From: an uncultured Dehalococcoidia bacterium
Lineage (GTDB): Bacteria > Chloroflexota > Dehalococcoidia > Lucifugimonadales > UBA3495
Direction: 5' to 3'
NCBI GenBank assembly: GCA_951813535.1
Contig: OX638345.1
Coordinates: 1,439,029 to 1,503,028 of the forward strand
DNA length: 64,000 bases
Shown in pieces: positions 25,710-37,553 of this stretch (position 1 is its first letter; the number at the start of each line of letters is the position of its first letter). The notes below the pieces were generated by a model. The model had not been told where the DNA came from. It searched no databases and saw nothing but the letters and a program-made list of their open reading frames with translations. The position numbers and the translations under genes are program-made.

Positions 25710-27032
25710 ATGAGGGTGGGTATCATCGGCGGCGGTGCGGCCGGCCTGGCGGCGGCCTTGGAACTGACGTCCAGAGGCCACTTTGCGGAGGTGTTTGAAG
25801 CGGCGCCTTTCCTGGGAGGGCAAGCGTCAACCTTCGAGGTCGGAGGTGGACAACTGGAACGCGGATACCACCACCTGTTCGTCAGCGACACGGACATGGT
25901 GGACCTGATCAACGAGTTGGGCCTGGGAGATTCCTTGCAATGGCTGGAGTCGAAAGTGGGCCTGTTCCATGGCGGTCGTATATGGGATTTCGCTACGCCG
26001 ATGGATTTGCTCAAATTCTCGCCGTTGCCCTTTACCCAGCGCATCAGGTTGGGGCTCTGGACTTTCCTGCTGCAAAAAACACAGGATTGGCGAAAGTTCG
26101 AGGGGATCACGGCGGCGGAATGGACGCGCGACCACATGGGGGAAGACGCATACCGGGTCATCTGGGAGCCGATGCTGCGTGGCAAGTTCGGCGACTACTA
26201 CGACCAGGTGAGCATGACCTGGCTGTGGGGGAAGATCTATCTGCGCGTGGCCTCCCGGAAACGCATGCAGAAAGAACGGCTGGGCTATCCGATGTGCAGC
26301 TTCGGGCGGGTGTTCGACGCCTGTGGCGAACGGATCGAGGAGCAGGGAGGCCGGGTGCATATTGGCGCGGCGGTCAAACGGCTCAACGTGGTGGCTGACA
26401 GAGCACAGGGTTTCGTCGCCTCGGTAGATGGAGAGTCCGAAAGGGACCACGAGTACGACGCGGTCATCGCGACGACGCCTTCGTACATATTCACGCGGCT
26501 CGCCCCTGACTTGCCGGATGATTACAGATCGGTGCTGGAGTCAGCGAGGTATCTGTCCGCCGTGCTGGTAATTCTGGTGCTGGACCGACCGCTGACCTCC
26601 AAGTATTGGCTCAACGTGGCGGACCGTTCGTTGCCCTTTGTTGGCGTAATCGAGCACACCAACATGATCGACCGCGACCTGTACGGCGGCAATCACATCG
26701 TGTACCTGACCAACTACCCGGACCGCAACAGCGAGCTATATCGCAAAGAGCCCGAAGAGTTGTTGGAGGAGTACGTTCCGCATCTCCGAAAGCTCAACCC
26801 GGACTTTTCGCGAGACTGGATACTGGGTTACCACCATCATCGGGTGGACGGCGCGCAGCCAATCAACGGAGTGCACTACAGCGAGCGGAACATCCCCGAC
26901 CACCGGACGCCGATCGGGTCGCTGTACCTGGCGAACACGACGCAGATCTATCCCGAAGACCGAGGGACGAATTACTCGGTGCGCATGGGCCGGCGAGTGG
27001 CACGGATGGTGCTCGACGACGGAGGCCCCTGA
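25710..27032 (+). CDS. FAD-dependent oxidoreductase (amine oxidase/desaturase-like)
   Basis: A 440-residue flavoprotein. It opens with a dinucleotide-binding fold, MRVGIIGGGAAGLAAALEL, then E-AAPFLGGQASTF, as in protoporphyrinogen oxidase, phytoene desaturase and related proteins. It ends with SLYLANTTQIYPEDRGTNYSVRMGRRVA, the FAD-closing segment. A related subgroup sits in surface-sugar clusters in other bacteria. Its placement directly after a flippase-like gene (4-base gap) suggests a step in lipid or glycan modification rather than heme or carotenoid synthesis, but that is inference. Confidence 0.8.
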   Translation: MRVGIIGGGAAGLAAALELTSRGHFAEVFEAAPFLGGQASTFEVGGGQLERGYHHLFVSDTDMVDLINELGLGDSLQWLESKVGLFHGGRIWDFATPMDLLKFSPLPFTQRIRLGLWTFLLQKTQDWRKFEGITAAEWTRDHMGEDAYRVIWEPMLRGKFGDYYDQVSMTWLWGKIYLRVASRKRMQKERLGYPMCSFGRVFDACGERIEEQGGRVHIGAAVKRLNVVADRAQGFVASVDGESERDHEYDAVIATTPSYIFTRLAPDLPDDYRSVLESARYLSAVLVILVLDRPLTSKYWLNVADRSLPFVGVIEHTNMIDRDLYGGNHIVYLTNYPDRNSELYRKEPEELLEEYVPHLRKLNPDFSRDWILGYHHHRVDGAQPINGVHYSERNIPDHRTPIGSLYLANTTQIYPEDRGTNYSVRMGRRVARMVLDDGGP

Positions 27033-27050
27033 ATGAGTGGATCGATGCCG

Positions 27051-27081
27051 ACATCATTTCAGGCATCACATGATGTAAAAT
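27051..27081 (+). promoter_or_regulatory. Candidate vapBC operator and -10 element
   Basis: ACATCAT (27051-27057) and ATGATGT (27070-27076) form an inverted repeat with a 12-base spacer, and TAAAAT (27076-27081) abuts the right arm as a -10 element. This lies 35 bases before vapB, where the VapB/VapC complex would bind to repress its own operon. The -35 is weak. Confidence 0.45.
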
Positions 27082-27115
27082 AAGATGTGCAAAGCGCAGC
27101 TGGCCGAAGGTTGAT

Positions 27116-27313
27116 ATGAGAACCACCATCAACATAGACGAGGAATTGCTGGCAAAAGCTCGGGAACTGACGGGCATAGCTGGCAGAACTGACCTGGTGC
27201 GCGAAGGGTTGCGTTCCCTGATTGAGCGGGAGAGTGCCCGGAGGTTGGCCAAGTTGGGGGGGAGTCAACCCCACCTGGAGGAAATCCCTCGCCGCAGGAG
27301 TGAGCCGGCATGA
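27116..27313 (+). CDS. vapB: VapB-type antitoxin
   Basis: A 65-residue protein that begins MRTTINIDEELLAKARELTG, the ribbon-helix-helix start typical of VapB antitoxins, followed by a basic, flexible tail that would wrap the toxin. The stop overlaps the toxin start by four bases (ATGA), so the pair is coupled, with antitoxin first. The A/T-rich flanks contrast with the surrounding GC-rich genes, in keeping with acquisition by transfer. Confidence 0.85.
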   Translation: MRTTINIDEELLAKARELTGIAGRTDLVREGLRSLIERESARRLAKLGGSQPHLEEIPRRRSEPA

Positions 27314-27681
27314 CGCTGGTCGATACGTCAGTTTGGATCAACCACCTGCGTGCCAACGACCCCGCTCTTGCGAAGCTGTTGGAAGATAACCAGGTCGTGA
27401 TGCATCCGATGGTCATCGGTGAGTTAGCTTGTGGGAATCTGCGCGACCGGGAACGCGTACTGGATCTGCTCAAGGAGTTGCCGCAGATACCTGTGTCGGA
27501 CGACGGCGAAGTGCTATTTCTGATCGAACGGCACCGTCTGATGGGGCGGGGAATCGGATACATTGACGCGCACCTGCTTGCTGCGGCGTCGCTGGCTGAC
27601 GCGGTCACGTTGTGGACCGAAGACCGCCGGCTGCATGGCGCGGCCGCTGCACTGGGTCTGGCATACCAATCGCCGGTTTAG
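27310..27681 (+). CDS. vapC: VapC-type PIN-domain toxin ribonuclease
   Basis: A 123-residue PIN-domain protein. The four acidic active-site residues are in place: Asp5 (LVDTSVWI), Glu39 (IGELACG), Asp87 (GYIDAHLLA) and Asp105 (LWTEDRRL). VapC toxins cleave tRNA or rRNA when freed from VapB. The protein has normal length and no visible lesion, so the module looks active. Confidence 0.9.
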   Translation: MTLVDTSVWINHLRANDPALAKLLEDNQVVMHPMVIGELACGNLRDRERVLDLLKELPQIPVSDDGEVLFLIERHRLMGRGIGYIDAHLLAAASLADAVTLWTEDRRLHGAAAALGLAYQSPV

Positions 27682-27754
27682 CTATGCGGTAACGTTGGCA
27701 GAAACACATGGAAACGCGCAGACCTTTCCGCATGCAATTTAGTTCTATTTTTAG

Positions 27755-27760
27755 TATAAT
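27755..27760 (+). promoter_or_regulatory. -10 element upstream of the GATase-like/gyrA unit
   Basis: A perfect TATAAT in an A/T-rich stretch lies 45 bases before the TTG start of the glutamine-amidotransferase-like gene. No good -35 is present at 16-18 bases upstream. It is the best promoter candidate for the downstream gyrA operon. Confidence 0.45.
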
Positions 27761-27804
27761 GTTCAAAGATAATTCGGCGCGAATATGCGATCAGGCCATA
27801 TACA

Positions 27805-28446
27805 TTGCCCATCATCGTCGTACTGGCCGACGACCGCAACGGCCATAACCCAAACCCATCAATCAGAGCGATCGAAGAGGCCGGTGGCAGCGTCCGCGTA
27901 GCCGTGCCGGCGATGCCGGAGACCGAGGCATTGCAAAGAGCCGGCGGTTTGCTGTTGCCGGACTGTCATCGAGGAGATGACGGCAATCTGCTCGAGGCGG
28001 CGCTGGGGGCCGACATGCCCGTGCTGGCCACAGGTGGCGGGATGCACGCGCTGAACCGGCACTTCGGCGGCGAGGACCCTCAGCCGGTGATGGCTCATTT
28101 TCCTGAGGACGGAGCGGAACCGCTGCGGCATCAGATCTACCTGTCGCCCGGTTCCAAGGTAGCCGCGATCATCGGTAGCGCCGGCATGTTCCGAGTGAAC
28201 AGCCGGCACCGCGAGGGCATTCGGGAGCCGCAGCGTGCGGAGCGCCTGATGACCATCGCGTATCAACTGGACGACGGCGTTATAGAAGGCCTGGAAAGCA
28301 AGGAACACAGCTGGGTGATTGGCGTGCAGTTTCAGCCGGAACACGGCGAAGAAGTGCCCGCGAGTTTCAACAACCTGTTCCTCGGGTTGGTGGAGCGCGC
28401 CCAGGACTTCATTCAGAATCACGACAGTAGGAGAACTTCACGATGA
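27805..28446 (+). CDS. Catalytically degenerate class I glutamine-amidotransferase-like protein (peptidase C26 type)
   Basis: A 213-residue protein aligning with PuuD-type gamma-glutamyl-GABA hydrolases: [18 protein letters not shown] matches the nucleophile-elbow region, then [30 protein letters not shown] and [10 protein letters not shown]. Two key residues are lost: the nucleophile cysteine is Gly77, and the catalytic histidine of the WHPE motif is glutamine (FQPE). It therefore should not hydrolyse glutamyl bonds and may act as a binding or regulatory protein. The start is TTG 27805; no ATG is available. The stop overlaps the gyrA start (ATGA). Confidence 0.8.
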
Positions 28447-31175
28447 CTACGGCGCCCCCACAGCAGCCCGGCGGAGAATTCACGCTGCGACCCATCGAGG
28501 ACGAGATGCGTGAGTCGTATCTCTCCTACGCCATGTCGGTTATCGTGGCGCGCGCGCTGCCGGACGTGCGGGACGGGTTGAAACCGGTGCAGCGCCGGAT
28601 TCTTTACGCCATGCACGATATGGGAATCCGCCCCGGCAGCCAGTACCGCAAGAGCGCGCGCATCGTCGGCGAGGTCCTGGGAAAGTTCCACCCGCACGGC
28701 GACGGCTCCGTGTACGACGCGCTGGTGCGCATGGCCCAGTTGTTCTCCATGCGTGCGACGTTGATCGACGGACAGGGCAACTTCGGCAGCATCGACGGCG
28801 ACCCGCCGGCGGCCATGCGTTACACCGAGGCCAGGCTCGCGGCCATCGCCGACGAAATGCTGGCGGACATCGACCAGCAGACCGTGGATTACTCCGACAA
28901 CTTCGACGATTCCCTCAAGGAGCCGCAGGTACTGCCGGCGCGGATGCCCAACCTGCTGGTCAATGGATCGTCCGGGATCGCCGTGGGCATGGCGACAAAC
29001 ATGCCTCCGCACAACCTGGGCGAGATCTGCGACGCCATCAACTACGTCATCGACCATCCGACGTGCAACGTGGACCAGCTGATGGAGATCGTCCCCGCGC
29101 CGGACTTCCCCACTGCCGGCAGGATTCGCGGCGTCTCCGGCGTGCGCGATATGTACGCCACCGGACGCGGTCGCGTGGTCATGGAGGCGGTGACCGAGAT
29201 TGAGGACATGCCGGGCCGCAATTCCAACCGGCAGCGGATCATCATCAGCGAGTTGCCCTACCAGGTGAACAAGGCGACGCTGGTGGAAAAGATTGCCAAC
29301 CTGGTCCGCGACAAGACGCTGGTGGGGATCACCGAGATCCGCGATGAGTCGGACCGCCGGGGCATTCGGGTGGTGATCGAACTGGCGCGCAGCGCGCAGC
29401 CCACCGTGATTCTGAACAACCTGTACAAGCGAACGGCGCTGCGATCGTCCTTCAACGCCATCATGCTGGCCCTGGTGGACGGGCAGCCGCAGGAACTGCC
29501 CCTCAAGGACCTGATCAACCATTTCGTCACCCACCGTGAAGAAGTCATCCGGCGGCGGACCGAGTACCAGCTGGGGCGGGCCCGGGACCGGGCGCACATC
29601 GTAGAGGGCCTGCTCAAGGCCCTGGACGCCATCGACGCGATCATCGAGACCATCCGCAACAGCCAGGACGTGGAAACCGCGCGCAACAACCTGGTTCAGC
29701 AATTCGACCTGTCGGAGATCCAGGCGCAGGCCATTCTCGACATGCAGTTGCGCCGGCTGGCGGCCCTGGAGCGGCAGCGGTTGGACGAGGAATACAACGA
29801 TCTGCTGGCGACCATTTCCCGGTTGGAGGACCTGCTGCAGAACCCTCAGAAGATACGCGCGGAGATCAAGCGCGAGACCCGCGAGGTCAAGCGAAAGCAC
29901 GCCGACCCACGCCGCACGGTGATAATTCCCGAGGAACTGCAGGAGCAGTCCATCGAACAGTTCATCGTGCAGGAAGATGTGGTCGTCACGCTGAGCCAGC
30001 GCGGGTACATCAAACGCGTGCCCATCGGCACCTACCGCAACCAGCGGCGGGGCGGCAAAGGGGTGCGCGGCGCGAATAACCGGGATGACGACGCGATAAT
30101 GCAGATCGCGGTGGTGAATACTCACGAGCAGTTGCTGTTTTTCACCAACAAGGGGCGAGTGTACCCCCTGAGCGTCTACGAGACGCCGAACGATTCCGGT
30201 CGAACCGCCCGGGGAACCCTGCTGGTGAACCTGATTCCCCTGCAGCCGGGCGAGCACGTACAGACCATGCTGCCGGCCAGCCGCGATGAATACAATCGGC
30301 TGTACGTCTTCGCCACCCGCAACGGTCGGGTGAACGCGCTGCGGCCGGGCCAGTTGCAGAACCTGAGGAAGTCTGGCCTCATCGCAATGAAGGTGCTGGA
30401 CGGCGACGAGTTGGTTGCAGTGCGCCCGGCGCAGAGCGACGCATCGGTCGTTATGGTCACCGAGCAGGGGCAGGCGCTGCTGTGCCCGGTCACCAGCATC
30501 CCCGAGCGGAACCGAAACGCCACCGGCGTGATCGGCGTGAAGTTCAAGGACGAATTCGGCGGCAAGGACAAGGTCGTGGCCCTGGATGTGGTCAACGACC
30601 CCGAGGACGAATACCTGCTGGTGGTCAGCGAAAAGGGTTACGGCAAGGCAACTCCTTTGTGTAACAGCAAGGGCGACGCCGTGTATCGCGAAACCAATCG
30701 CGGCGGCATGGGCGTCAAAACCTTTGCCGTGGACCAGAGCGACAAGCCCACTGGCCCGGTGGTGGACGCCAAGATTGTGACCTCCGCGGAAATGAACGAC
30801 GAGGAAGGGCACGAGGTGTTCATCATCTCGGCCCGTGGCCAGGTGGTCCGTATCGATCTCGCAGAGATCAAGGTGGTCAACACTCGCCAGACCAAGGGCG
30901 TCATCATCTGGCGCGAGCGCGGCGGCGACGACAGCGTCGTATCCATCTACTGCTTCCGGGCCACTGACTACAGTCAGGACGACCCGGCGCTGCAGGATGG
31001 CGCGGCCAATACGGTTCTTGAACAAGCCGAAGAGGTTGCGGCTCACGCCGACAGCCAATACGAGGACGCAGACGCTGAAGATGAGGATGTTGTCGAGGAT
31101 GCGCCGGATGACGACATCGACGAAGATGACGATGATCCGGACACTCACGTGAACGGCCAGGCTCCGCTGTTGTAA
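28443..31175 (+). CDS. gyrA: DNA gyrase subunit A
   Basis: GyrA cuts and rejoins the DNA gate during negative supercoiling. The 910-residue protein has the N-terminal breakage-reunion domain with catalytic Tyr127 ([10 protein letters not shown]), and a C-terminal wrapping domain with the GyrA box QRRGGKG, which marks gyrase rather than ParC. At the quinolone-pocket position equal to E. coli Ser83 there is Gly88 ([10 protein letters not shown]), with the next acidic residue Asp92 kept. The C-terminus ends in a strongly acidic tail of about 35 residues. The start overlaps the degenerate amidotransferase gene by four bases. Confidence 0.96.
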
Positions 31176-31187
31176 GGAACTGCTGCA

Positions 31188-31877
31188 ATGCAACTGGTTA
31201 TGGTTCATGGCTCCGGCCAGAACGAACTGACCTACCACTACCAGACCGCGCGGTTCGACAACGCGGACGCCGTCAACCTGCCCGGCCACCCGGACGGGGA
31301 ACCCAGAGACAGCATCGGCGGGTACGTGGACTGGCTGCGGGATTACGCACACGGGAAGGGGTATCCGCCCTTCGTCCTGTTCGGGCACTCCATGGGCGGC
31401 GCCATCGCCCTGGACTACGCGCTGCGGTTCCCCGAGGATCTGGCTGGCTTGGTCCTGATCGGAACCGGCGCGCGGCTGCGCGTGCACCCCGACTACCTCA
31501 ACCGCTGTTTGTACGATGCCCAATGGCGCGCCGAGGCGCCGGCGTACTATGAGGCCATCAACCAGGATCTGGCGCCACAACTGGCTTCCCGCGCGTTGCA
31601 GTCCGGCCCGATGGTCGAGCACAACGATCTGGCGGCGTGCGACCGGTTCGACGTGATGGAGCGCGTCAAGGAGATCGGATTGCCGTCCCTGGTTATCGTG
31701 GGTGCCGATGACATAATGACCCCGGTGCGTTACGCGGAATACCTGGGTCGGGAGCTGCGGGACGCCGAAGTGGTGGTGGTTCCCAACTCTGGGCACTTTG
31801 TCACGCTGGAACAGCCGGAAGCCGTCAACGAAGCCGTCGCACGTTTCCTGATCCGGTTGGGTGACACCAGCGGATAA
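31188..31877 (+). CDS. Alpha/beta hydrolase
   Basis: A 229-residue alpha/beta-hydrolase with a full triad: nucleophile Ser68 in GHSMGG, an acid in VGADDIMTP and His in NSGHFVTLEQPE. The N-terminus starts directly at the first strand (MQLVMVHGSGQ) with the oxyanion HG motif, so it is a minimal-core esterase or lipase-like enzyme. The substrate is unknown. It begins 12 bases after gyrA and is followed by a terminator, so it is the last gene of that unit. Confidence 0.85.
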   Translation: MQLVMVHGSGQNELTYHYQTARFDNADAVNLPGHPDGEPRDSIGGYVDWLRDYAHGKGYPPFVLFGHSMGGAIALDYALRFPEDLAGLVLIGTGARLRVHPDYLNRCLYDAQWRAEAPAYYEAINQDLAPQLASRALQSGPMVEHNDLAACDRFDVMERVKEIGLPSLVIVGADDIMTPVRYAEYLGRELRDAEVVVVPNSGHFVTLEQPEAVNEAVARFLIRLGDTSG

Positions 31878-31905
31878 CTACAGGTATCAAACCAGGTACG
31901 CAACG

Positions 31906-31928
31906 GCCCGGCCACGCGTCGGGCTTTT
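31906..31928 (+). terminator. Intrinsic terminator after the gyrA-hydrolase unit
   Basis: GCCCGGC (31906-31912) pairs with GTCGGGC (31918-31924) including one G-T pair, with a 5-base loop, followed by TTTT. It lies 28 bases after the hydrolase stop. Confidence 0.7.
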
Positions 31929-32003
31929 GCATGCCCGGGGACTTGGCCCACCGGCATTGCTGGTATCATGGGGCCAACCACACCCGGAACCCGTACACGA
32001 ACC

Positions 32004-34226
32004 ATGACAATGGCGCATGCGTATATCCCCGACGGGCATCGACTGGGCGCGTCCCTAGCGGGCATGTATGCTGGGCATCCCGACGCCCAGGGATTGCCCG
32101 TGGCTCGGCGCGTGGCGGTGACAGTCGCGGGACTGGTCGAGTCCGGTAACTTGGATGTCGACGCGACGGTGGTCAATACTGCGGCGCTGTTGCACCTGGC
32201 CGGCCGGCCGGATGATCCGGACCGACCTGAGGTTTCCGTCGCCTTGGCCGGCGCATGGTTGCGGGGGGCGGGAGCGCCCGAGTCGTACGTGACGGCGGTG
32301 GCTGTCGCCATTCTGGGCGCTTGGGGCGCGGCGAACGGCGACGCAAGCGGGGTCATTCTGCGGGACGCGGCGCTGCTGGACCTGGTTAGTATCGAAAGGC
32401 ACGCCGACTACCTGCGAGACGCGCCGCCTCCGGGTCGCCTCCGGGAGCCTTACCTGGCCAGCTATCGCCGCGAATGCCTCACGCCGGCGTTGCGCCTCCG
32501 CGACGGCCTGATGCTCCCGGCGGCGGTGGAGTTGTACGACCAGCGCATGCCCGAATTGTCGGCGTGGCTGGATGAACAGCCGGCCAATCTGGTTCCATCG
32601 GATTGGCGACGCCTGGTGGAAGTAGCGGAGATCGAGAGCGGGGTGCGCAGGTTGCTGGATGGCGAAGATCCGGCGGCGGTTCGCGCCGAAATGCCCACCG
32701 GGGGACTGCCCTACGCGGAGTACCGGGGACGGCAACGCGCCGTGATCTCAGGAAGCCACGACCGGATCCTGGAACTGACCCATGCTCGCATCGAGGCGTC
32801 GCGCAACGTGGCCGCCGAAAAGTACCTGGAGAGCGATACGATCCATAAGCCGGCCGTGGAGGAAAACCTGTTCGTCGGCGCGCGGCGTCGGGCGCGGCAG
32901 TTGGGCCTGTCCGCGGAGACTGCGGAAGACATCGCCAGGTTGCTCCTTTCCAACGCCCGTGAGGTGCAGGAGCGGACCCTGAACGACATCGCCCAGCGTC
33001 TCAGCCGGCTGCACGGCCAGATCCTGGACGCGGATTCACCGGAAACTCGCACCGACGAGGCCGATATCGCGATCCCATCCCTGGTGGTGCGCACCGGCGA
33101 CCAGCCATTGGCCCGCGAGAACGAACTGATCAAAGAGTTGCGCGTCACCGGGCTGAACGAGGCTTACCCGGAACAGCGCCGGCGCTTCATGGAATGGTTC
33201 GAGACCCCGCACCCTTACATGGAAACCGGGATGACCGTGGGTAGCCGCGACGCAGACATCTTCATGCAGGCGCTGACCGATGGCCAACGGAGCAAGGTTT
33301 TGATGACGGTTGCCATAGATGGGCCGGCACACCTGGGCCACGGAACCGTCGCCAGCGTCCTGGCGCACTTCCAGGCCATGGGCGCCAAGGTGACGATAGG
33401 TTTTCGCGATGAACTCGGTGACTTGGACAAAGCGCGACAGGTGATGCGCGAACACCTGTTGTCGATGGCGGCCAGCGGCCTGGATCTGGAGCGCGCCGAC
33501 GCCTACCTTCAGCAGGATAGCCCCTCAATAGTCCGGACCGCGTTTGAACTCGGGGAAGCGATCCCGCTGAGCGTGCTCAACTCGGCATTGGGGCTGCGTC
33601 TGCGAAACAGCGCGACCGACACCTTCCGGCCCCTGCTGCGCTTGGCCGACATCCTGCACGTCCAGCAGCCGGAGGCCGGCGGACCTTGCCGGACGCTGGT
33701 GGTAGACGGCATCGGCGGTGACGTGTACGTGCGTATGGCCCGCAACGTGGCCGAACGGTTCAGGTTCCTGAAGCCGTCGGCGCTGTATCTGCGCCCGCTG
33801 CGGAACCTGACCACCTACGAAGACCCCCGGACCGGTGGCGCGGTCGAGGTGATGACCAACCGGGTCCCGCCCGGCCGCATCACCTATGAGGACGATCCGG
33901 CCGATATCCGGCGGCGCGTCAACCGGGCTTACACCGGCGGCCGTGGCACGCTGCAAGAGCAGCGGGAAAAGGGCGGCAACCCCGACCCGAGGGTCTGCTC
34001 GGTGTCCAGTCTGCACGCCTTTTTTGCCACACCCGACCCGCAGGCGTACGCGGAGTTGCAAAGGAGTTGTCGGGCAGGTGAGTTGTTGTGTGGGGAATGC
34101 AAGAAGTCAGCGTCGGACGGCCTGCTAGAATATCTCAAGGGACATCGCAAACACCGAGATGGACAGAGCGACAGGGTACATGCGCGCATTGCAACCTTGT
34201 CCAAGGCGATGGTTAGCGAGGACTGA
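32004..34226 (+). CDS. Three-domain fusion: degenerate HD domain, chorismate-mutase-like domain, archaeal-type TrpRS-like domain
   Basis: A 740-residue protein with no standard name. Residues about 9-140 resemble an HD phosphohydrolase, but the HD pair reads HL (64-65) while a later RDAALLD is kept. Residues about 247-329 resemble AroQ chorismate mutase: by hand alignment Arg262, Lys273 and Glu286 match E. coli Arg28, Lys39 and Glu52, while the Asp48 and Arg51 sites are changed. Residues about 379-725 follow archaeal/eukaryotic tryptophanyl-tRNA synthetase: VGSRDADIFMQAL, HLGH (443-446), GDVYVRMARNVAERF and AYTGGRGTLQEQREKGGNP. CRAGELLCGECKK also matches. The KMSKS site reads VMTNR (616-620). 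It probably does not charge tRNA, but may bind tryptophan or make an adenylate. ATG 31968 and ATG 32010 are other starts. A normal trpS lies 0.4 kb downstream. Confidence 0.75.
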   Translation: MTMAHAYIPDGHRLGASLAGMYAGHPDAQGLPVARRVAVTVAGLVESGNLDVDATVVNTAALLHLAGRPDDPDRPEVSVALAGAWLRGAGAPESYVTAVAVAILGAWGAANGDASGVILRDAALLDLVSIERHADYLRDAPPPGRLREPYLASYRRECLTPALRLRDGLMLPAAVELYDQRMPELSAWLDEQPANLVPSDWRRLVEVAEIESGVRRLLDGEDPAAVRAEMPTGGLPYAEYRGRQRAVISGSHDRILELTHARIEASRNVAAEKYLESDTIHKPAVEENLFVGARRRARQLGLSAETAEDIARLLLSNAREVQERTLNDIAQRLSRLHGQILDADSPETRTDEADIAIPSLVVRTGDQPLARENELIKELRVTGLNEAYPEQRRRFMEWFETPHPYMETGMTVGSRDADIFMQALTDGQRSKVLMTVAIDGPAHLGHGTVASVLAHFQAMGAKVTIGFRDELGDLDKARQVMREHLLSMAASGLDLERADAYLQQDSPSIVRTAFELGEAIPLSVLNSALGLRLRNSATDTFRPLLRLADILHVQQPEAGGPCRTLVVDGIGGDVYVRMARNVAERFRFLKPSALYLRPLRNLTTYEDPRTGGAVEVMTNRVPPGRITYEDDPADIRRRVNRAYTGGRGTLQEQREKGGNPDPRVCSVSSLHAFFATPDPQAYAELQRSCRAGELLCGECKKSASDGLLEYLKGHRKHRDGQSDRVHARIATLSKAMVSED

Positions 34227-34228
34227 CT

Positions 34229-34390
34229 ATGAAGGAATTTTTCCTCGATCACATTTGCACCACGCCCCCGTACACGGTCGCCTCCTGCGAATATCAATAC
34301 CTGGTATTTGCAACCATCGGCGCGACTATACTGGTTGGTGGGCTGGTGATGGCAGGCATCGCCGTCGTTCGACGCCAGAACCTGCATTAG
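34229..34390 (+). CDS. Small single-pass membrane protein (53 residues)
   Basis: An open frame of 53 codons starts at ATG 34229, three bases after the TrpRS-like fusion, with GAGG about eight bases upstream. The product has a hydrophilic N-half with two cysteines (Cys11 and Cys20) and one clear membrane helix (LVFATIGATILVGGLVMAGI), ending in VVRRQNLH. The ribosome site, the spacing and the amphipathic layout favour a real gene, probably co-translated with the fusion gene. The function is unknown. Confidence 0.5.
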   Translation: MKEFFLDHICTTPPYTVASCEYQYLVFATIGATILVGGLVMAGIAVVRRQNLH

Positions 34391-34391
34391 G

Positions 34392-34478
34392 ATGGCATCG
34401 CTCGCTGTGTTCGTCTCGTTCATATTGGTGATCGGTTTTTTCGGATCCGTTTGCTACGAGTGGGACCGAACGCATTGA
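34392..34478 (+). CDS. Possible 28-residue membrane peptide
   Basis: ATG 34392, one base after the previous stop, opens a 28-codon frame: a hydrophobic stretch (LAVFVSFILVIGFFGSVC) followed by YEWDRTH. It could be translated by coupling with the preceding small gene, or be chance. A further hydrophobic frame without an ATG runs to about 34579. The rest of this gap before trpS holds nothing else that I recognise. Confidence 0.25.
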   Translation: MASLAVFVSFILVIGFFGSVCYEWDRTH

Positions 34479-34618
34479 GGGATTTTGGCCGAAGGCGCTG
34501 TTGAGGACATTGTCCTGGTTTTGGATCGGGGTAGCGGGATTGTTGCTTTCCCTTCTGATCAAGGTAGTCTCTGTGCAATAGCGATAGGCTACCGATTTTA
34601 TTGGAGAGAGTATCGAGC

Positions 34619-35635
<1,017 letters not shown>

Positions 35636-35681
35636 CCGAACGACCCGGGTTTCACGGGCGCCAACCGCCTACCTATCGAAA

Positions 35682-35714
35682 ACGGGGCAACCACAGGGTT
35701 GCCCCGTGTTTTGT
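35682..35714 (+). terminator. Intrinsic terminator of trpS
   Basis: An 11-bp perfect stem, ACGGGGCAACC (35682-35692) with GGTTGCCCCGT (35697-35707), has a 4-base loop and is followed by GTTTTGTC. It is 46 bases past the trpS stop. Confidence 0.85.
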
Positions 35715-35788
35715 CAGCGTGTTAGCGTAACGGGGCCGCGCCGGTTACTCTGCGTGGTTTCTGATTCGTTGCCAACCGGAGGGACGAT

Positions 35789-37018
35789 ATGGCAGGCAAT
35801 CCTAGAGACAAATATTGCATCGTAGGGGTGGGCGAAACCGAATACAGCCGGGCCTCTGGCCGCACCACGCGGGCCCTGGGCGCCGAGGCGATCCGCAACG
35901 CCATGAACGACGCCGGCCTGACGCCCGATCAGGTGGACGGCATGCTCAGCTACCACGGCGGAGATTCCACGCCGTCCACATCGATTCAATACGACCTGGG
36001 CATCCGGCCGAACTTCTACATGGACTGCTCGGGTGGGGGTTCTTCCACCGAAGCGCTTGTCGGGTTGGCCATTGGGGCCATCGAGGCCGGCATGTGCGAC
36101 GTGGTGGCCATTTTCCGCTCCATGAACGGCTACTCCAACGTGCGCATCGGTGGCACCGGAGCGCGGGCGTCGGCTCCCATCGGCGGGCTCGACCTGATGA
36201 AGCGACCCTACGGGTTGATCAGCGCGGTGCAGCAGTTTGCCTACACCTTCACCCGCCACATGGCCGAGTATGGAGTGAAGAGCGAGGATTTGGCGGCCAT
36301 CAAGGCGGCCCACTCCAACCACGCCTCCAACAACCCCAAGGCGCTGATGAAGCACCGCGTCACCGTGGACGATGTGATGAACTCGCGCTGGATCATCCGG
36401 CCGGTGGCCCACCTGCTGGACTGCTGCCTCGAAACGGACAACGCCACCTGCGTTATCGTCACGTCCGCCGAGCGGGCCCGGGACCTCAAGCACAAGCCCA
36501 TCTACATCAAGGGAGTGCAGGGTCGAGGCACCAAGCCGGGCGGCGACTTCCACTACCAGCACGGGCCGATTTCCCGAGTGGCCGGCCACTACATCGCCCC
36601 GCGCATTTTCGACTTGGCCGGCGTCAAGCACGAGGATGTCGACCTGACCGGCTGCTACGACGCGTTCACCTACACGGTGCTGCTGCAGTTCGAGGACTAC
36701 GGTTGGTGCGAGAAGGGCGAGGGCAAGGACTACGTTACCAGCGGCGCCATCAACCTGGGCGGCCGGCGACCCAACAACGTCAGCGGCGGGCACCTGTGCG
36801 AGGGTTACACCCACGGGATGAACATGGTCATCGAAAACGTGCGCCAACTGCGCGGCACCGTGGACGACTACTGTCCCGGCGCTACCGAGGGTGACCACAC
36901 CTTCGATTACAGCGAGGGCGGCTGCCGCCAGGTGCCGGACGCCAAGATCAGCATGAACATGGGTTGGGGCACGCCGGCGGTCGGCAGTTCCCTCATCATG
37001 GGCAACGTGCTCAGCTAG
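35789..37018 (+). CDS. Thiolase-family protein (SCP-x / lipid-transfer type)
   Basis: A 409-residue thiolase-fold protein. The nucleophile region is MDCSGGGSS with Cys80; the later catalytic blocks are altered (CYDAFTYTVLLQFED in place of NEAF, GGHLCEGYTHG in place of GGHP-GATG), as in the SCP-x/lipid-transfer group that works with DUF35 partners in side-chain retro-aldol cleavage. It probably acts on a CoA-bound intermediate in breakdown of a complex substrate. The DUF35 partner gene follows 22 bases later with its own ribosome site. Confidence 0.85.
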   Translation: MAGNPRDKYCIVGVGETEYSRASGRTTRALGAEAIRNAMNDAGLTPDQVDGMLSYHGGDSTPSTSIQYDLGIRPNFYMDCSGGGSSTEALVGLAIGAIEAGMCDVVAIFRSMNGYSNVRIGGTGARASAPIGGLDLMKRPYGLISAVQQFAYTFTRHMAEYGVKSEDLAAIKAAHSNHASNNPKALMKHRVTVDDVMNSRWIIRPVAHLLDCCLETDNATCVIVTSAERARDLKHKPIYIKGVQGRGTKPGGDFHYQHGPISRVAGHYIAPRIFDLAGVKHEDVDLTGCYDAFTYTVLLQFEDYGWCEKGEGKDYVTSGAINLGGRRPNNVSGGHLCEGYTHGMNMVIENVRQLRGTVDDYCPGATEGDHTFDYSEGGCRQVPDAKISMNMGWGTPAVGSSLIMGNVLS

Positions 37019-37040
37019 ACGCCGAACAGGGAGAAGGACA

Positions 37041-37553
37041 ATGCCTAACTACACCTACCGGGGCATCACGCTGAGCATCCCCGAGAATGACTCTGAATAC
37101 AAGGGTTACTTTGAAGCGGCTGCGGAAGGTCGCCTGGTCGTCAAGAAGTGTTCTGATTGCGGGTTGCTGCGCGGCGAGCCGGGGCCGGGATGTCCCTGGT
37201 GCACGTCTCTGAACTGGGAGTGGCAGCAGGTATCCGGCAAGGGCACCATCTACTCGTACCAGGTGGTGGCCCACACGGTGATCCCCGCTTTTCGCGACTC
37301 AACGCCCTTTGCCATCGTGCTGGTAGAACTTGACGAGCAACGCGGACAGCCGACCGAGTTCGACGGGCTCCGTATCACCGGCAACCTGGTGGATACCGAC
37401 TTCAACATGGAGAAAGAGGCGAACGTCGGCATCGGCAAGCGGGTGGAGGTCGCATTCCAGCCGGTGGAAGACGGGTTCATGTTACCTCAGTGGCGTCTCA
37501 TCGACGAGCCGGACCAGGGTTTCACGTGGTCGCATGAGGTGCCCGAAGGCTGA
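37041..37553 (+). CDS. DUF35 OB-fold protein with zinc ribbon
   Basis: A 170-residue protein with an N-terminal zinc ribbon (Cys37, Cys40, Cys51, Cys54) followed by an OB fold (GKGTIYSYQVVAH, PFAIVLVELDE). DUF35 proteins pair with thiolase-fold proteins as aldolases or acyl-CoA-binding subunits, and the preceding gene is just such a thiolase. GGGAGAAGG precedes the ATG. The two should be read as one enzyme. Confidence 0.88.
   Translation: MPNYTYRGITLSIPENDSEYKGYFEAAAEGRLVVKKCSDCGLLRGEPGPGCPWCTSLNWEWQQVSGKGTIYSYQVVAHTVIPAFRDSTPFAIVLVELDEQRGQPTEFDGLRITGNLVDTDFNMEKEANVGIGKRVEVAFQPVEDGFMLPQWRLIDEPDQGFTWSHEVPEG

Follow-up and report, generated by a model that had tools for sequence, protein, structure and literature searches.

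Chorismate mutases are a textbook case of enzyme regulation, and in their known bacterial fusions they are joined to neighbouring enzymes of the shikimate pathway. The plastidial mutases are activated by tryptophan (PMC6318282). In M. tuberculosis, the AroQ-delta mutase (MtCM) is activated by a partner, DAHP synthase, which binds it non-covalently (PMC7762937). HisZ is a paralogue of the class II synthetase HisRS that lacks synthetase chemistry and is tied to an amino-acid biosynthetic enzyme, the ATP phosphoribosyltransferase HisG, which opens histidine synthesis: as a separate subunit HisZ activates HisGS, and it carries a histidine pocket (PMC9734150). In the eukaryotic Gcn2, whose output is a kinase, a degenerate HisRS-like domain that binds uncharged tRNA is a precedent for a synthetase turned sensor (PMC4335047). 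In the DNA analysed here, a stretch of 64,000 nucleotides from an uncultured Dehalococcoidia bacterium (hereafter the window), one gene joins a degenerate HD-like part, an AroQ-type chorismate mutase (CM) domain and a part derived from an archaeal-type tryptophanyl-tRNA synthetase (TrpRS). We consider it reasonably probable that this fusion is the chorismate mutase of its lineage, with the TrpRS-derived part as its regulator.

The fusion gene is located at 32004..34226 on the forward strand, within a frame of 752 open codons (31968-34226, +), and would encode a protein of 740 aa from 32004 or 752 aa from 31968. The initial annotation had used the earlier start. In the alignment of 15 homologues, homology begins only at 'MT..HxYxPDxHRL' and nothing upstream of it is shared, so that 32004 is probably the correct start. 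Residue numbers given below follow the 740-aa form, and adding 12 converts them to the 752-aa numbering. The annotated order of an HD-like, an AroQ-like and an archaeal-type TrpRS-like part in one uninterrupted frame was borne out. Two Pfam families support the CM and TrpRS assignments, CM_2 (residues 260-335; 27.4 bits against a cut-off of 27) and tRNA-synt_1b (residues 452-721; 24.8 bits against 21.1), and both were matched by all 15 aligned homologues.

A search of genome contigs yielded 13 further full-length orthologues (67-84% identity over their best segments) in independent assemblies labelled SAR202, Dehalococcoidia or Chloroflexota/Chloroflexi, two of which are titled chromosomes. 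These 13 other intact copies rule out an assembly error that joined separate genes. Among the 118 genomes sampled from the order, the fusion is confined to the genus of the window, where it is found in G000 and in G601 (the genome carrying locus L039). A 549-aa form composed of the CM and TrpRS parts without HD, about 51% identical, is present in G252 and G294, which belong to another Chloroflexota class. No relatives of the fusion were found in the viral contigs searched, the plasmid search gave matches only to the TrpRS part, in haloarchaea, and PADLOC gave no match. The HD-CM-TrpRS combination was not found in the literature searched, which covered few subscription journals, and we know of no report of it. 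Each of the principles involved has precedents; the combination itself appears to be new within the literature searched.

The CM domain (residues ~235-333; 32706..33002, +) has the three-helix AroQ pattern of the E. coli CM-prephenate dehydratase type (CM_2). A profile HMM derived from twelve AroQ domains, all from the bacterial class of the window genome, aligned to it without a gap, and so did hhalign (probability 96.7, E 3.4e-10, 81 columns). The E. coli mutase (EcCM) residues R11, R28, K39, E52 and Q88 correspond, with exact spacing, to R245, R262, K273, E286 and Q322, which are invariant in 15/15 homologues from two classes. The secondary active-site residues D48, R51 and S84 are not kept and are replaced by K282, V285 and A318, also in 15/15, which distinguishes the fusion from the E. 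coli type. Known AroQ enzymes differ from one another at these sites, the yeast enzyme having other residues there as well, so that the changes lower the case for AroQ membership but do not exclude it. The EcCM numbering was taken from general knowledge and from PMC7762937 and PMC12329711. What separates the mutases from isochorismate pyruvate lyase is Glu52, which is in contact with the 4-hydroxyl group of chorismate and is replaced by Val in PchB (PMC12329711). A candidate alignment with a four-residue gap, which put Leu and Phe at the R51 and E52 positions and would have implied a catalytically dead domain, was rejected, since the ungapped HMM and hhalign alignments place Val and Glu there. 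The initial annotation was right to call this region AroQ-like; it underrated the domain, in which the full catalytic set is kept in 15/15 copies and which is apparently the only mutase.

The loop between helices H1 and H2 of the CM domain lacks the Pro and Asp that are linked to efficient unaided catalysis (PMC7762937), as does that of M. tuberculosis AroQ-delta. Because of this loop and of the changes at the D48, R51 and S84 positions, the unaided mutase activity could be low. By analogy with the M. tuberculosis enzyme, the loop would fit, rather than show, a mutase that is held low until it is activated; the proposed partner here would be a covalently attached pseudo-TrpRS instead of a non-covalent DAHP synthase. 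A TrpRS-like domain also sets the fusion apart from known AroQ proteins, whose fusion partners are prephenate dehydratase (PDT), PDH or DAHP synthase.

Among the full-length copies, the CM domain and the linker that follows it evolve several-fold more slowly than the HD part and the TrpRS core. For CM, dN/dS was 0.015-0.05, compared with 0.19-0.37 in the HD part and 0.11-0.20 in the TrpRS core, and mean column identity was 96-97% for CM and linker versus 72-82% for HD, the TrpRS core and the anticodon domain (TAB). In the AlphaFold model, helices 237-276, 279-300 and 304-341 fit AroQ with low confidence (pLDDT about 50-70). A phmmer search of the PDB with the CM domain alone returned chance matches only, and no AroQ entry was among the matches listed in the structure searches. 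The missing structure match does not count against the assignment, because the CM domain is poorly modelled without its dimer partner.

The distribution of mutases among related genomes points in the same direction as the catalytic residues. All 16 fusion genomes tested encode PDT, and in all 16 the CM_2 match of the fusion exceeds the Pfam cut-off; AroH was found in 0/16 and a second AroQ was likewise absent from each of them. By contrast, 110 of the 118 genomes sampled from the order carry AroH, among them members of three further genera in the family of the window genome. This amounts to 110/116 fusion-free genomes, while both sampled fusion genomes lack AroH. The chance that both would fall among the eight AroH-free genomes is 28/6903 (about 0.004), although the two belong to one genus and the contrast therefore represents one evolutionary event. 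The second class, to which G252 belongs, offers no such contrast, since AroH occurs in 0/41 genomes there. In sister genera without the fusion, aroH is flanked by trpA and a DAHP synthase gene, an order conserved in L107 (9026-11473; G578) and L108 (G616). Given 16/16 fusion genomes without AroH or another AroQ and 110/116 fusion-free genomes with AroH, it is very probable that the fusion took over from AroH as the mutase of the cell. Judging from these gene inventories, it is probably the only chorismate mutase of the cell among the known AroQ and AroH types, and we think it highly likely that it acts as one. The full AroQ residue set and the apparent status of sole mutase further suggest that the fusion acts on the flux itself and not only in signalling.

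Two other readings of the AroQ domain were considered. It might have no catalytic role and instead sense chorismate or prephenate so as to regulate trpS or translation, prephenate being made by an unrecognised enzyme. The altered D48, R51 and S84 equivalents would agree with such a sensor, as would CM_2 scores of 27-40 bits, which barely exceed the Pfam cut-off; nevertheless, all five catalytic residues are kept without exception in both classes, the domain is the only AroQ or AroH protein in 16 genomes with PDT, and AroH is absent from the fusion genus while present in its sister genera, which makes the sensor improbable. It is exceedingly unlikely that the domain serves a secondary pathway by acting on another substrate, for example isochorismate. 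The AroQ fold does include the isochorismate pyruvate lyase PchB, and the R51 equivalent is Val, but E52, which is Val in PchB (PMC12329711), is kept, no salicylate or siderophore genes were found among the neighbours tested, and the genomes would be left with no mutase at all.

The linker between the CM domain and the TrpRS core (33003..33158, +) comprises about 52 residues and, with a mean column identity of 97% in full-length copies, is as conserved as the CM domain. It is followed by an archaeal-type TrpRS Rossmann core (33159..33893, +) and by a TrpRS anticodon-binding region (33894..34148, +). The archaeal-type identity claimed in the initial annotation was confirmed by NCBIfam, in which archaeal-type TrpRS models scored up to 171.5 bits versus 92.8 for bacterial trpS, and by superposition on the Aeropyrum pernix TrpRS 3a04, which was the best solved relative in phmmer (4e-32) and gave Z 27.2 in VIA (329 aligned, 3.6 A).

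The catalytic motifs of this synthetase part are eroded. KMSKS, already reported missing from the window copy, is absent from 15/15 copies, being VMTN in 13 and VMHG in two. The DQ pair that comes after the active-site strand, required like KMSKS for amino-acid activation, has become GG in the home lineage, and the other class has EH or ER there. The HIGH region, HLGH in the window, is largely kept, with H-x-G-H in 11/15 copies and Y, N or Q in place of the final His in 4/15. In the tryptophan pocket, the Q147 equivalent is lost and the equivalent of B. stearothermophilus M129 is Arg in the home lineage and Tyr in the other class; 13/15 copies keep the Asp that holds the indole nitrogen in bacterial TrpRS. 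Residues were mapped from general knowledge and PMC2954223. Because KMSKS and DQ are lost, the pocket is changed and the HIGH His is missing from 4/15 copies, amino-acid activation is unlikely, and the earlier suggestion that the protein probably does not charge tRNA appears to hold. The altered pocket (Q147 and M129 equivalents) also implies that the ligand may not be tryptophan.

The anticodon-binding region carries the cysteines C665-x23-C689-x6-C696-x2-C699, and the motif C-x23-C-x6-C-x2-C is invariant in 15/15 copies. It corresponds to C-x(21-24)-C-x6-C-x2-C, the [4Fe-4S] motif known from T. maritima TrpRS, whose site lies, in a model, within reach of anticodon base 34 (PMC2954223), and a [4Fe-4S] site is therefore predicted in the fusion. 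The fusion has the TrpRS fold and the cysteine motif in common with the Fe-S TrpRS enzymes (T. maritima TM0492, A. pernix 3a04), whereas KMSKS and DQ are lost, the pocket is altered and synthetase activity is not expected. Identity to A. pernix TrpRS was 41% in the TAB domain versus 27% in the core. In a control with a working pair, the A. pernix and P. horikoshii TrpRS, the values were 44% and 30%. A special retention of the tRNA-binding part is therefore not supported, and the higher conservation of TAB speaks neither for nor against tRNA binding.

Second, divergent TrpRS genes occur in bacteria. A second TrpRS, for instance an inhibitor-tolerant one, that still activates or charges tryptophan with a mutase attached would have such genes as bacterial precedent and would agree with the fold and the largely kept HxGH. 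It is, nonetheless, very unlikely for a protein in which KMSKS is absent from 15/15 copies, DQ is lost and the second His of HIGH is replaced in 4/15, and which adjoins a complete trpS in every locus examined. Because the Fe-S anticodon domain is conserved, tRNA-Trp has to be taken seriously as another candidate ligand. The mutase would be the same, but the TrpRS-like module would read charged versus uncharged tRNA-Trp via its Fe-S domain instead of free tryptophan. An intact cysteine motif in 15/15 copies, placed near anticodon base 34 in the TmTrpRS model (PMC2954223), would suit this role, as would the loss of the activation residues, the altered pocket and the constant company of trpS. Against it, the TAB and core identities (41%/27%) do not differ from those of the working synthetase pair (44%/30%), and we regard it as possible, if on the unlikely side. 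Less probable again is the fuller proposal that this one enzyme sets the chorismate branch flux by sensing tRNA-Trp charging, and perhaps iron or redox state, through its retired Fe-S TrpRS, and that the regulated mutase spreads between bacterial classes as a cassette with its own trpS.

The N-terminal part is a degenerate HD-fold domain (residues ~6-205 of 740; 32019..32618, +). No Pfam HD model matched it. When the N-terminal half was modelled separately with AlphaFold2, residues 31-200 reached a pLDDT of about 85-93, and the top Foldseek rows were HD hydrolases (3djb/YpgQ, probability 1.00, E 3e-3). VIA gave Z 16.0 against 2pq7 (163 aligned, 3.5 A), a value that is good but not overwhelming, as helical proteins reach about Z 13 by common arrangement. 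An HD-domain profile matched only 2pq7 and 3dto, weakly (E 0.02-0.07), and in the weak alignment to 2pq7 (E 0.019) LLHD faces LFHL. The helical region had been described as HD-type with its HD pair changed to HL; the fold searches and the weak 2pq7 match agree with the first point, and the metal-binding pair is indeed HL in 12/13 aligned copies and LL in the remaining one. The fold is that of YpgQ-type HD hydrolases (VIA Z 13-16), but the motif is degenerate and a catalytic metal site is not expected. On the basis of the model and the motif columns, this part was read as a degenerate, non-catalytic HD domain. Since the other class lacks it, we take it as an accessory regulatory or assembly domain. 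A 455-aa frame on a contig of G291 (C18:244931-245332), another genome of the class, matches query residues 80-213 in the HD region (E 4e-4), and may represent a possible origin of this part.

According to the favoured reading, a mutase regulated by its TrpRS-derived part, the AroQ domain would convert chorismate to prephenate, and the TrpRS-derived part would bind tryptophan, a related metabolite or tRNA-Trp. The binding signal would pass via the highly conserved linker and turn the mutase up or down. The initial annotation had already proposed that the protein senses tryptophan and couples it to aromatic-amino-acid flux, which may hold as part of this reading. Ample tryptophan could then direct more flow to phenylalanine and tyrosine, as in the tryptophan-activated plant mutases. 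These features suggest that an enzyme once used in translation has taken control of the branch to tryptophan or to phenylalanine/tyrosine. The principle is the same as in HisZ, and the parallel is a functional analogy only: HisZ is a class II, separate subunit in histidine synthesis, whereas the fusion carries a class I TrpRS domain, covalently attached, at the aromatic branch. The proposed role likewise resembles that of the HisRS-like domain of Gcn2, a degenerate synthetase serving as sensor. If this regulation is real, the decision between tryptophan and phenylalanine/tyrosine would be tied directly to the tryptophan-charging machinery, and histidine synthesis with HisZ would have a class I, covalent counterpart in the aromatic branch. 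The fusion makes it testable how dead synthetases turn into metabolic sensors. It also offers a natural experiment, with non-orthologous replacement of AroH, slow evolution of mutase and linker and apparent co-movement with trpS.

A bacterial trpS with KMSKS (34601..35635, +; start at 34601, TTG, or 34619, ATG) begins 375-392 bases downstream of the fusion, in agreement with the distance of about 0.4 kb first reported. In every locus examined, trpS is directly downstream of the fusion. The two genes are 2-23 bp apart in four genomes, 55 bp in one and about 390 bp in the window group. The order gyrA, hydrolase, fusion, trpS and thiolase is common to the window and 11/13 orthologous loci. With L040, L041 and G252 the window neighbourhood has no more than the fusion-trpS pair in common, and the flanking genes tested there are unrelated to those of the window and to each other. 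No tryptophan-related neighbours were found among ten tested in L040, L041 and L105.

The trpS genes of the fusion genomes form one clade (100/99) in a tree without trpS of the nearest aroH-bearing genera. The trpS of the window shares 72% identity with its counterpart in the other class versus 42% with that of a fusion-free genome of the same order, which suggests that trpS itself was transferred horizontally. The simplest reading of these sequence relationships suggests joint horizontal transfer of the fusion and trpS. In L014 (G276), L017 (G208) and L113 (G003), trpS is nearest to the fusion-linked clade (50-52% identity) and there is no close copy of the fusion; these neighbourhoods might reflect a possible ancestral state.

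Directly after trpS, a terminator-like stem of 11 pairs, 8 of them G-C (35682..35707, +), marks a possible end of a fusion-trpS unit; it is suggestive only, as three such sites were seen versus 2.8 expected in shuffles. Rfam detected neither a T-box nor any other known RNA element in 27000-37500. Two small ORFs conserved in several relatives lie between the fusion and trpS. The ORF at 34229-34390 encodes about 50 aa (MKEFFL..CTTPPYTVASCEYQY..), likely with a membrane helix. The ORF at 34392-34478 is a 61-aa membrane-like frame in L043 and is shorter in the window, apparently via a one-base difference. Moreover, an open frame of 1125 codons (28419-31796, -) lies on the strand opposite gyrA and the hydrolase gene; it probably reflects coding bias and not a true gene.
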